DNA of 35,564 nucleotides from Methanoregula sp. (GTDB lineage Archaea; Halobacteriota; Methanomicrobia; Methanomicrobiales; Methanospirillaceae), in contig JAPKXU010000223.1 of NCBI GenBank assembly GCA_026394655.1, positions 1-35,564 of the forward strand, given 5' to 3'. The translations under genes and the position numbers were made by a program. The notes under the pieces are model-generated. The model had not been told where the DNA came from. It ran no database searches and was given only the letters and a program-made list of their open reading frames with translations. Shown here one piece after another: positions 23,508 to 35,564 of this stretch. Positions within the stretch are counted from its first letter, which is position 1. Every line of letters begins with the position of its first letter.

Positions 23508-24740
23508 ATGTACCCGGAAAACCAATACGTTCCCATGTACCATCTCGTGTGCGTCCAGTGCGGAGCAACCTATCCCGCTGACGAGATCATCTATAATTGT
23601 AAGAGATGTGGACACCTCCTGGCGGTGAAATACCCGCTTAACGAGATCACCATCAATAAAGCCGCGTGGGACAAACGCCCTCTCTCGGTGTGGCGATATC
23701 GCGAACTGCTTCCAGTGCAGATTGAACCTGTCACTCTCCAGGAAGGAGGCACTCCGCTCTATCACTTAAAACGCCTTGGTGACGAAATGGGGCTTCGTCA
23801 TCTCTACGCAAAACACGAGGGGATGAACCCGTCCGGGTCGTTTAAGGACCGGGGTATGACTGTGGGTGTTTCGATGGCGCTCCAGCTAAAAATGAAAAGT
23901 GTTGCCTGTGCAAGTACCGGGAACACCTCGGCGAGTCTCGCGGTCTATGCGGCAAAAGCCGGTATCCCTGCTGTCGTGCTGCTGCCTGCAGGTAAAGTGG
24001 CGGTGGGAAAGATCGCACAGGCACTCATGCACGGTGCGAAGGTCATATAAATACGGGGCAACTTTGACCGTGCGCTTGAGATGGTCCACGAGCTCTGTCT
24101 CACCCACGGACTGTACCTGTTGAACTCGATGAACCCCTACCGGCTGGAGGGACAGAAGACGATCGGTTTTGAAGCGGTTGACCAGCTGGGGTATGTGCCC
24201 GATCGGTTTGTCCTGCCGGTGGGCAATGCTGGGAATATCTCCGCAGTCTACAAGGGACTCCTCGAACTCGAAGAACTTGGCTTTGTCGATCGCCTGCCGA
24301 TGATGACGGGTATACAGGCAGCAGGGTCATGCCCGATTGTGCGGGCGATCCACGAGAATCTCCCCACTGTGATCCCAGAAGAACATCCTGAAACCGTCGC
24401 CACCGCAATCAGGATCGGTGCCCCGGTGAATGCAGAGAAAGCCCTCACCGCCATACGGAAGACCGGCGGACTTGCCGAATCGGTGACTGATGATGAGATC
24501 CTCCGGATGCAACGGGATCTCGCCAGAAAAGAAGGGATCGGTGTAGAACCTGCATCCGCTGCATCGGTCGCTGGCATACGAAAACTGGTGGAACAGGGTA
24601 GGATCGACCGTGACGAACGGATTGTCTGTGTGGTTACCGGGCACCTGCTAAAGGACCCGGATACGGTGATAAAACAATGCGAACCCCCAGTAGAGATCGA
24701 CGCAGATTTGCCCTCTTTACTCTCTGCGCTGCACTTGTAA
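23508..24740 (+). pseudogene. thrC: Threonine synthase interrupted by an in-frame TAA stop at 24048-24050
   Basis: ORF 23508-24050 (CVQCGATYPADE...CKRCGHLL, GSFKDRGMTVGVSMA) continues in the same frame after TAA: ...ALMHGAKVI*IRGNFDRALEMVHELCLTHGLYLLNSMNPYRLEGQKTIGFE... to 24740. Confidence 0.88.
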
Positions 24741-28157: not shown

Positions 28158-30224
28158 TTACCAGATGACCGGCCGGTCGCTGACGTTCCGGTACAGGGCA
28201 TCGCCAGGCTGGATCTCCGGGAAGGTATCGTAGAACTCCGGGATATTGAACAGGACACCGTTCACCCGGTACCTGTTTGCAGTGTGGGGGTCTGTATAGA
28301 CCCGGTTGCGGAGGGAATCCTCCCGGTCGTTTGACTGCCATATGCGTGCAGCCGCGGAGAAGAACTGCCGGTCCACGGTACTGTTGGACACTCCGGGGCC
28401 CGATGACGGGTTCCCGTACTCCTTCCATGCATGATAGGAGAGGGTCAGACCCCCGAAGTCAGCGATATTCTCGCCAAACGTGAGGTTGCCGTTGTTAAAG
28501 ATCCCGGGGAGGATCTCGAAACTGTTGTATTCCTTCACCAAAAGGTCAGTCCGGTTGGCAAAATTCTTCGCATCCTCCTGTGTCCACCAGTTCTTCAGGT
28601 TCCCGTCCTTGTCGAACTGCCGTCCCTGGTCATCGAACCCATGGGTCATCTCGTGCCCGATTACCCAGCCGAGACCCCCATAATTGGCTGAGGAATCTGC
28701 ATCCGGGTCAAAGAAGGGTGGCTGGAGGATGCCTGCAGGAAATACCATCTCGTTTTTGGTTGGATCATAAAAGGCGTTGACGATCTGCGGGGAGATATCC
28801 CAGGTTGTCCGGTCAACCGGTTTTCCGATTTTGTCCAGCCCATAGGTGCCGTGGATAAAGTCGAACACCGAGACAGAACGGATATTTCCGGCATACGAGT
28901 TCGACAGGTTCAGCCCGGAGTAATCTCTCCATTGGTCAGGATACGCGATCTTCTGCCTCATTGCAGCAAGCTTTGCATGGGCTGCGGCTTTGGTGGAAGG
29001 ACTCATCCAGGTCAGGTTCGAGATCCGCTGGTCAAGCGTCTTTCGGATATTGAGGAACATGGCCGAGACCATGTCCCGGGTCCGGGGGTCGACATACCGG
29101 GTAACATATTCCCTGCCGACAAGATCCCCCAGCATATCACTCTCGGTATTTGTGACGCGTTTCCACCGGGGCCGCATCTCCTTTACCCCGTATAGGGTCT
29201 TGCTGTAGAAGGAGAAGTCCTCATTTTCGAACGGTGAACTGAGCGACGCGGCTGCGCTGTTGATCAGCTGGTACCGCAGGTAGACTTTCCAGTCTTCAAC
29301 CGGCGCAGTCCGGAGGAGCGTGTCGAGTCCCTGTACGAACCGCGGCTGGTGGACATTCACCTGGTCTACCGGACCGGAGCCCGGGATCGTGCTCAGGGCT
29401 TTCCACCCGATAGAGGGATACTGATCGTCCAGTGCAGCAATGGAGTACAGGTTGGTGGTATCCTCGGGGTTACGGTTCTCCTCTGCACTGAAATGGGACG
29501 TGGCAAGGGTCTTCTCCATGGCATAGACGGTTTTTGCATCAGCCGCAGCCTGGTCATCAGGCTCGCCCGTCAGATTGAAGATCCTGGCGATATGGGCGAG
29601 GTAGGCCCCTTGAATCTCCTGGCTTTTGTTGTCGGTCCTGAGGTAATAGTCCCGGTCCGGCAGCCCGAGCCCGCCCTGCGTGATGCCCGGGACCATCTCG
29701 GTGCTGTTCCGGGGATTGATCTCCGCAGAGTAATAGTACACCGGGCGGAACCCGTGCTGCAGGAGAATGATCGTGGCATTGGTCAGATCTGAGCGGGATT
29801 TAATGGCATCGATCATCGCGAGATCATCGGACAAGGGGAGTATTCCCTGCCGGTCGATCAGTGCAGTATCCATCCCGGACCGGTAGAACTGCCCGATGAG
29901 GGATATATTCCTGTCAGTTGTCCCAGACGATGCATTTGCTGCCTTTTCAAGGAGCGTATGCAGGTCATCATCAACCTTGTCGCTGAGCACGGCGAATGTC
30001 GTGTAACTCGATTTATCGGCTGGGACTGGATGCTCTGCAATCCAGGCATCATTCACGTAGCCAAAAAAATCGTCGCCCGGCTTTACGGACTTGTTGAGGG
30101 TGAACCCGCTGTCAGGTACCTGGGTTACGTTGCCCGGTACCTTTGTTACGGTACCGGCGGGCCCGGAACACCCGGCCGATACGAGACACAGGATCACGAT
30201 GAGGATCAACGCGACATGTTTCAC
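28158..30224 (-). CDS. M13-family zinc metallopeptidase (neprilysin/PepO-like), predicted lipoprotein
   Basis: Lipobox-like LCLVSAGCSG, active-site VIGHEMTHGFDDQGRQFDKDGNL, NEMVFPAGILQPPFF, ENIADFGGL, NIPEFYDTF. Confidence 0.95.
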   Translation of the reverse strand: MKHVALILIVILCLVSAGCSGPAGTVTKVPGNVTQVPDSGFTLNKSVKPGDDFFGYVNDAWIAEHPVPADKSSYTTFAVLSDKVDDDLHTLLEKAANASSGTTDRNISLIGQFYRSGMDTALIDRQGILPLSDDLAMIDAIKSRSDLTNATIILLQHGFRPVYYYSAEINPRNSTEMVPGITQGGLGLPDRDYYLRTDNKSQEIQGAYLAHIARIFNLTGEPDDQAAADAKTVYAMEKTLATSHFSAEENRNPEDTTNLYSIAALDDQYPSIGWKALSTIPGSGPVDQVNVHQPRFVQGLDTLLRTAPVEDWKVYLRYQLINSAAASLSSPFENEDFSFYSKTLYGVKEMRPRWKRVTNTESDMLGDLVGREYVTRYVDPRTRDMVSAMFLNIRKTLDQRISNLTWMSPSTKAAAHAKLAAMRQKIAYPDQWRDYSGLNLSNSYAGNIRSVSVFDFIHGTYGLDKIGKPVDRTTWDISPQIVNAFYDPTKNEMVFPAGILQPPFFDPDADSSANYGGLGWVIGHEMTHGFDDQGRQFDKDGNLKNWWTQEDAKNFANRTDLLVKEYNSFEILPGIFNNGNLTFGENIADFGGLTLSYHAWKEYGNPSSGPGVSNSTVDRQFFSAAARIWQSNDREDSLRNRVYTDPHTANRYRVNGVLFNIPEFYDTFPEIQPGDALYRNVSDRPVIW

Positions 30225-32876: not shown

Positions 32877-33878
32877 TTACATCAGAACCACGAGCAGCCA
32901 GAATGAAACGACAGGCAAGAGGATGGACACCAATATACCGCATCGGTTGATGGGTTTCACCAGTTCGGGTCTCTCCCATTGTTGCTGAGCGAGATAACAG
33001 ACGGTAGTAACCGCGACGGTTACGGCAAGGAACAGGTACACGGCTATCATGAATTTGTCGAACAGCTTGAGTACCCCGAGACCCGGGATCAGGGCGAGCT
33101 GGCCGAAGTGGTACATCACAGCGGAGATGAACATGCTTGTTGTAAGGACGTACCGCAAGTGGACCAGTTCGGGGTGATCGACCCGGATCAGGAAGGAGAG
33201 TCCGGCGATGATACAGAAGATGAGGGGCGGGACGATAGTCTGGAGAAGCGAGGCTAACGCATCATTTGTTATCGGGATATTGTACGCGAGCTGGGAATAG
33301 GTCTGGTTCTCGGGATACGAATGGTCGCTCACGGAAAACGAAGGGGTGCCGATCTTCCAGCCGGGGATGACAAACCCGGGTTCCATCCCGCTTTCTTCTG
33401 TAAAGGGGACATAGGTGAGTTGTGAACTTTGTAAATTAGCAGGTTCGATCTTGATCGGCAGGATCCCGGATTCGAATGGGTAATCCATGTTATTGGGAGT
33501 AATCCTGAAATCAGCCCTGACCCGGTAACCTTCTTCCTTTACCGGACCGGATTTGCTGTCGTATATTCTCTCCACCGAATTTGCACCGGAAGAGGGCTGA
33601 CCGTTCATGAACTCGAAGCGGGCGGTCTCGATACTGGGATCAGTCCACCGGAAAGTGAGGTAACAGTCTATTGTGTAGGTTCCTTTGACCATCTCGAGGT
33701 TGTCAATCGAGTTGATAAAGACCGCGACCTGCATTTTGGATGGAGAGTTGGATGATGAGTTCACCGCAGGAGGAAGTGACGGTAAGGCTTCTACTGCCTG
33801 AACTGAGGATATAAGTAATAGCAGGGTCATTACCAGAAACAGGAGAATAACTGCGATTTTCCGGGGATTGTACCGCAT
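32877..33878 (-). CDS. Pentameric ligand-gated ion channel (Cys-loop receptor superfamily) homolog
   Basis: Signal peptide; extracellular domain VAVFINSIDNLEMVKGTYTIDCYLTFRWTDPSI, pLGIC-like YPFESGILPIKIE and GWKIGTPSFSV; four C-terminal TM helices starting LQTIVPPLIFCIIAGLSFLI. Start ATG at 33878. Confidence 0.75.
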   Translation of the reverse strand: MRYNPRKIAVILLFLVMTLLLLISSVQAVEALPSLPPAVNSSSNSPSKMQVAVFINSIDNLEMVKGTYTIDCYLTFRWTDPSIETARFEFMNGQPSSGANSVERIYDSKSGPVKEEGYRVRADFRITPNNMDYPFESGILPIKIEPANLQSSQLTYVPFTEESGMEPGFVIPGWKIGTPSFSVSDHSYPENQTYSQLAYNIPITNDALASLLQTIVPPLIFCIIAGLSFLIRVDHPELVHLRYVLTTSMFISAVMYHFGQLALIPGLGVLKLFDKFMIAVYLFLAVTVAVTTVCYLAQQQWERPELVKPINRCGILVSILLPVVSFWLLVVLM

Positions 33879-34218
33879 AATAGGGTTTTTTCTTTGAAAA
33901 ATAAAATGTTGCCGAGTTTGGTTTAAATCCAGATTTGCATTCCCTGCATCACTGGTGAGGAAAAGACTGCTTCTGTTTTGGGGTCTGAAAGAAAAGTAGG
34001 GGGTTTGGGGCGGGAGATCCCTGCCGATAGACAACTATAAGGAACGGACCGGGGTCAAGCAAGTACGTACCCGTAGGAGGGCCTCTCTTATGGATAGGGC
34101 GGGACGGGGGTCCGGACCCGGGAAGATCGCAGGGCGGCTGGTCCGGCAGGAGAACAGGTAAGGTCTTTCCGGTTACTTTCATCCAGTCAAACCTGCTCCG
34201 GATATCACCAGGAGACCG

Positions 34219-35372: not shown

Positions 35373-35564
35373 CTAATACCCGCTCTTGACGATGGGGACC
35401 GCCCCGATATCGAGATACTGGCTCCCGTCACGGGTATACTTCGGCCAGGTAACATTCATCCCGCCGTTCGGGTTTCCGGTCTTTGCAAAACGGGTCCAGA
35501 TATCGATCAGGTTGTCACCGACAGAATCTGTTACTTGATCCGAAGGAATCGGGACCTTGAATAA
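35373..35564 (-). CDS. Type-B carboxylesterase family protein, C-terminal end (truncated by window edge)
   Basis: Read from the window edge: LFKVPIPSDQVTDSVGDNLIDIWTRFAKTGNPNGGMNVTWPKYTRDGSQYLDIGAVPIVKSGY*; W..FAKTGNPN...WPKYT...YLDIG is the typical carboxylesterase tail. Not in the ORF track (no start in window). Confidence 0.75.
   Translation of the reverse strand, partial: LFKVPIPSDQVTDSVGDNLIDIWTRFAKTGNPNGGMNVTWPKYTRDGSQYLDIGAVPIVKSGY

Follow-up and report, generated by a model that had tools for sequence, protein, structure and literature searches.

Pentameric ligand-gated ion channels (pLGICs) have been reported previously from methanogens, in Methanosarcina (Tasneem et al., as cited in PMC4795631) and in Methanobacterium formicicum (PMC4795631, 2016), and at the time of the latter survey a biological role was known for no unicellular pLGIC (PMC4795631, 2016). 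Two positions are close to universal among 561 superfamily sequences, an Asp in the Pro loop (93%, with Glu in 3%) and an Arg preceding M1 (94%; PMC4795631 Table 1), and the two residues form a salt bridge (PMC4795631). In ELIC, the amine-gated channel of Dickeya/Erwinia, the alanine mutant of either residue is non-activating; in GLIC, the proton-gated channel of Gloeobacter violaceus, the Asp mutant fails to activate and the Arg mutant was not expressed (PMC4778918). The salt bridge couples the ligand domain to the pore. Our search of the open-access literature found no characterised archaeal pLGIC and no pLGIC from any Methanoregula.

The DNA analysed here (the window) is a stretch of 35 564 nucleotides from Methanoregula sp. 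(contig JAPKXU010000223.1). It carries a gene (table 1) which, judged from the protein sequence and a structural model, is likely to encode a functional channel of the pLGIC type. Methanogen pLGICs having been described before, this gene is not new in kind; what is new is the definition of a rare subfamily that is under purifying selection without having the coupling salt bridge. A preliminary description had presented the product as an archaeal member in a methanogen; the family has been borne out, while methanogen pLGICs had already been published (PMC4795631). The label ‘methanogen’ is taken from the genus, in which 22 of 23 good genomes have mcrA; neither mcrA nor mcrB was seen in the window's own metagenome-assembled genome, which is 82% complete.

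The gene and its assignment to the pLGIC superfamily

The frame is intact from the ATG at 33878 to the end of the stop codon at 32877 on the minus strand, and upstream it stays open as far as a TTG at 34034. Because two relatives, L002 (86% identical) and L003 (55% identical), have their starts in line with the ATG, it is the more credible start codon. The existence of these relatives in other genomes, the closer of them full length with a dN/dS of 0.25, also places the ORF far from chance. The predicted signal peptide, probably cleaved near residue 28, would direct the N-terminal domain outside, and the closeness of a TATA-like element to the ATG suggests that a leaderless or short-leader transcript is possible. 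The neighbouring genes encode an MFS transporter and a methyltransferase.

Table 1. Features of the pLGIC-family gene and its product, in window coordinates.
Feature	Position	Strand	Basis or remark
pLGIC-family gene, 333 aa	32877..33878	(-)	ATG start, stop included; ORF, relatives, homology
candidate TATA-like element TTTTATTTTT	33897..33906	(-)	19-28 bases before ATG; like stretch in L002
predicted signal peptide, residues ~1-28	33795..33878	(-)	hydrophobic helix 5-23, then low-confidence linker in AlphaFold model
extracellular beta-sandwich, ligand-binding-type domain, residues 47-205	33264..33740	(-)	AlphaFold strands 47-62 to 192-205; Foldseek
Pro loop YPFE, residues 133-136, Glu136 for near-universal Asp	33471..33482	(-)	alignments
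pre-M1 Asn205, position of conserved Arg (GLIC Arg191/192, ELIC Arg199)	33264..33266	(-)	alignments
M1 helix 207-230, conserved kink proline (PP 217-218)	33189..33260	(-)	AlphaFold, alignment
M2 helix 236-263, pore-lining	33090..33173	(-)	AlphaFold; anchoring on M2-M3 proline
M3 helix 272-299	32982..33065	(-)	AlphaFold
M4 helix 304-332, C-terminal	32883..32969	(-)	AlphaFold

The window protein matches the NCBIfam models TIGR00860 (LIC; 7.7e-10) and LGIC_1 (1.4e-4) with scores far below the curated cut-offs (38 versus 280 bits), and both models match all 32 aligned relatives. In Pfam, PF02931 is matched below threshold (0.0031, 17.4 bits against a cut-off of 26) and PF02932 (Neur_chan_memb) gave no match; PF02931, TIGR00860 and NF033918 all scored beneath their curated cut-offs. 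With Pfam alone sub-threshold, membership is therefore drawn from profiles and fold. A four-sequence profile searched against the PDB found GLIC (~1e-12, with the extracellular domain (ECD) and M1–M4 aligned) and the GLIC/GlyR chimera 4x5t (5.7e-17, both domains aligned). The structure was modelled with AlphaFold from a 32-sequence alignment (pLDDT 80.9), giving an all-β extracellular domain that begins some 20 residues past the signal peptide, followed by four helices (table 1) with an M3–M4 linker of only ~4 residues and no cytoplasmic signalling domain. The best 50 Foldseek matches listed were all pLGICs (best E-value 1.6e-19, range 1e-19 to 1e-17, probability 1.00), among them GLIC, GlyR, ELIC, GABAA and GluCl, and the alignments to GLIC, GlyR and GABAA covered 309–328 columns.

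With profile similarity extending over both the ECD and the transmembrane domain (TMD), and a β-sandwich predicted ahead of four transmembrane helices, we consider membership of the pLGIC (Pro-loop receptor) superfamily secure on sequence and model. The protein departs from the superfamily in having Glu136 for the Pro-loop Asp and Asn205 for the pre-M1 Arg; these residues are highly conserved yet not defining, because 7% of members lack the Asp (PMC4795631 Table 1). The preliminary description, which had identified a pLGIC homologue, thus stands as to family, and the signal peptide, β-rich extracellular region and M1–M4 layout that it read from the DNA agree with the model. Its quoted motifs are all present in the ORF: VFINSIDNLEMVKGTYTIDCYLTFRWTDP (residues 53–81), YPFESGILPIKIE (133–145), GWKIGTPSFSV (173–183) and LQTIVPPLIF in M1, together with the terminal M4. 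Its placement of M2 within LVHLRYVLTTSMFISAVMYHF matches both the model helix and the anchoring on the M2–M3 proline. Of the two outcomes it had named as fatal to the assignment, the wrong fold did not materialise, and the absence of Pfam matches was half realised, PF02931 being found below threshold and Neur_chan_memb not at all. Its comparison with the [FY]PFDxQ motif picked out a genuine stretch but treated YPFES as ordinary, where the Asp is substituted and its Arg partner is substituted too.

Other superfamily residues are kept and form invariant columns of the 32-sequence alignment, namely Pro134 of the Pro loop (32/32), where the superfamily is absolutely conserved, Trp174 in β9, Pro217 in M1, Arg242 at M2 0′ and Pro265 between M2 and M3. 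No cysteines flank the Pro loop at 133–136, the sole ECD cysteine being Cys72 in strand 2, and by its sequence the protein would not be classed with the eukaryotic Cys-loop receptors, which have a disulfide there. It shares with animal glycine, GABA-A and nicotinic receptors a homologous ECD and M1–M3 (phmmer, Foldseek) and the basic 0′ residue that most members possess, but has the compact prokaryotic form, with neither Cys loop nor cytoplasmic domain. GLIC, one of the best solved full-length matches, is similar in fold, length, short loop C and the absence of both a Cys-loop disulfide and an M3–M4 cytoplasmic domain, whereas identity is 17% and both salt-bridge residues differ. ELIC gives an ungapped, recognisable match over β1–β2 and again differs in the salt bridge, which the window protein has lost.

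A rare archaeal subfamily among methanogen pLGICs

All 232 genomes of the class were surveyed for relatives, which fall into three groups, each forming one clade (support 100/99, 100/99 and 100/100 for types A, B and C). Type A, to which the window protein belongs, is a rare subfamily distinct from types B and C. It is intact in four genomes of the 232, the window's own (G000), G009 (86% identity), G010 (55%) and G006 (33%), and in one more (G017) only a TMD fragment was found. Type B is common across genus and family, and type C, with proteins of 620–690 aa, occurs in other families of the order; pLGIC genes are absent altogether from many genomes of the genus. Types A and B group as sisters with support of 96/81 when all rows are used, but the SH-aLRT value falls to 20 without the long branches, including L005, so we do not claim this relationship. 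Type B proteins resemble the window protein in layout, in Arg 0′ and in being free of acidic residues at −2′ to 2′ (~23–28% identity), and differ in lacking the WxD Trp and the M1–M2 linker insertion.

Several relatives merit description in their own right. The single-contig genome G010 has, ~1.7 kb downstream of its intact type A gene, a frame-broken second copy (C1:402617-402893; L024, L025). In the closed genome G017, the fragment L004 (C1:2459834-2460238; 142 codons, TMD only) adjoins an Asp/Glu racemase-family gene. A type B gene in the single-contig genome G015 (C1:1544203-1545009; L019, L088) is interrupted by a stop codon and frame shifts and is apparently a pseudogene. In type B the M2 hardly varies (SRLGLNASMFLAAVLIHWRxADAIP, every row shown having His 15′ and Trp 16′), a stronger constraint than that on the M2 of type A. 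Type C loci (L058, L059, L020, L069, L071-L086) come from further families within the order and the phylum. Their ~300 additional N-terminal residues are predicted to form two β-rich domains, and their profile matches bacterial DeCLIC (6v4a) over its full length (1.8e-180), consistent with a large archaeal DeCLIC-like group. The window protein shares the pLGIC core with these DeCLIC/sTeLIC-type relatives from the same order, but has neither the ~300-residue domains before the ECD nor the acidic 2′ residue.

A scan of genome contigs with type A as the query yielded only two relatives, both already found. A viral origin was discarded, as no relative of type A was present in IMG/VR viral contigs or phages; a plasmid origin likewise, since the matches were only distant pLGICs on replicons of megaplasmid size in Azospirillum and Streptomyces. 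These two plasmid homologues, L090 (NZ_CP059450.1) and L091 (NZ_CP109428.1), carry no channel name, being either unannotated or a ‘hypothetical protein’. Nor does type A belong to an operon or conserved neighbourhood: the contexts of its genes are, variously, an MFS transporter and methyltransferase, a histidine kinase and HTH protein, a PAS/response regulator, PEGA proteins and an Asp/Glu racemase. As these neighbours are not shared, genomic context gives no function.

Loss of the Asp–Arg pair under purifying selection

The residues at the Pro-loop and pre-M1 positions are E/N in the window protein and L002, E/K in L003, N in the fragment L004 and D/R in L005. Asp and Arg are both kept in 25 of 25 type B sequences, 19 of type C, GLIC, ELIC and the two plasmid-borne bacterial sequences. 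Because L005 and all these outgroups keep D/R, the loss arose within type A. The GLIC triad has Asp31 as its third residue, a Thr in ELIC; the window protein has Met63 there, with Glu62 adjacent. A Pro-loop Glu is also seen in the nematode secondary Cys-less clade, whose loop reads YPFE (PMC4795631); that lineage is unrelated, however, and its motif is reportedly shifted by one residue (PMC4795631).

The window gene is under purifying selection. Between it and L002, dN/dS is 0.247 overall and ~0.14 in the TMD (dN 0.036, dS 0.26), the most constrained part; for L003, over a large distance, the value is 0.26. These figures bear on the possibility that the gene is a decaying or non-gated relic, type A being in the course of losing function with the salt-bridge loss an early step. 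As the ELIC alanine mutants of either residue are non-activating (PMC4778918), loss of the Asp or Arg could mean loss of gating; type A genes do get lost, as the broken second copy in the closed genome G010 and the solitary fragment in G017 illustrate, and pLGICs are missing from many genomes of the genus. The dN/dS ratios and the constraint on the TMD nonetheless disfavour decay, the ORFs are full length, and the substituted residues are themselves retained, both E and N in L002 and N in L004. The salt-bridge loss thus does not look like decay, and we judge a relic unlikely; were it one, this would be an ordinary lineage-specific loss.

A second alternative is that type A provides an accessory subunit, working only in heteropentamers with type B, which would supply the Asp–Arg pair. 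Heteromers are frequent among animal pLGICs, type A has no coupling pair of its own, and types A and B coexist in G010 and G006. The window genome and G009 (82–84% complete) have no type B match, however, and in G010 the two genes are unlinked (at about 400 kb and 984 kb), and we think this arrangement improbable.

We favour a channel made by type A itself. In the Methanoregula-type archaeon, the product would sit in the cytoplasmic membrane as a subunit of a pentamer, probably a homopentamer. Five copies would assemble round M2, and the pore would be opened by a signal from outside the cell that acts on the outward-facing β-sandwich. With the salt bridge gone, coupling would run through remaining contacts, such as those of the Pro-loop Pro/Phe with Pro265 between M2 and M3, or else be weak. 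The fuller proposal, that peatland methanogens harbour a natural pLGIC lineage which gates without the Asp–Arg salt bridge and is possibly an anion-permeable prokaryotic member, is put forward tentatively, and we hold it to be somewhat more doubtful than not. If true, type A would contradict, as a wild-type case, the rule that coupling needs the pair. The subfamily is a natural experiment on which contacts are truly required to connect receptor domain and pore.

Pore and putative ligand site

With M2 numbered from the M2–M3 proline, the window protein has His at −2′, Leu at −1′, Arg242 at 0′, Val at 2′, Ser at 6′, Ile at 9′, Met at 13′ and Phe at 16′, and none of the positions −2′ to 2′ is acidic. 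Cation-selective channels of the nAChR, ELIC and GLIC kind have an acidic residue at −1′ or −2′. Since the window M2 has no acidic ring like Glu −2′ of GLIC or Glu −1′ of ELIC, classic cation selectivity is not predicted. Pre-M2 residues are generally insufficient to predict selectivity in prokaryotes (PMC4795631), so we only lean, at about even chances, towards a pore that is anion-permeable or poorly selective rather than cation-selective. Type A is in this respect a candidate non-cation-selective prokaryotic channel.

The pore also raises the question of a receptor-like protein of pLGIC fold that does not conduct and signals by another route. The pore positions V2′, I9′, M13′ and F16′ are very hydrophobic, and two of the type A genes have a histidine kinase or response regulator nearby. 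These neighbours are not conserved between copies, however, the ~4-residue M3–M4 linker leaves no cytoplasmic signalling domain, and Ser 6′ and Arg 0′ are kept; a non-conducting receptor therefore seems to us highly improbable, and a conducting channel is the reading we retain.

In the extracellular domain, loop C spans six residues, against seven in GLIC and 13 in ELIC, and 54 residues separate the WxD motif from the Pro loop, compared with 71–75 in GLIC and ELIC (~17 fewer than in GLIC), a shortening also seen in other archaeal and bacterial members. In ELIC, the residues F19, Y38, F133, Y175 and F188 form the agonist site. Four of these positions are aromatic in the window protein (F54, Y73, Y188 and Y194 for F19, Y38, Y175 and F188), whereas Ala147 replaces F133 of loop B and the region of loop A is shorter. 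Because loop C resembles that of GLIC in its shortness and ELIC's aromatic in loop B is missing, a proton or other GLIC-like stimulus may be somewhat likelier than a classic amine agonist, at close to even chances.

Other genes in the window

Elsewhere in the window, threonine synthase is split into two ORFs (23508-24740, plus strand) that encode the first and second halves of the enzyme ~30 bases apart; this is a frameshift, either an assembly error or real. A full-length peptidase of the M13 (neprilysin) type, its N terminus resembling that of a lipoprotein, is encoded at 28158-30224 (minus strand), in an archaeon. Close to the pLGIC gene, where the contig stops, lies the C-terminal end of a carboxylesterase-family (COesterase) gene (35376-35564, minus strand). 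The COesterase family includes cholinesterases, and its proximity to a pLGIC is probably a coincidence.
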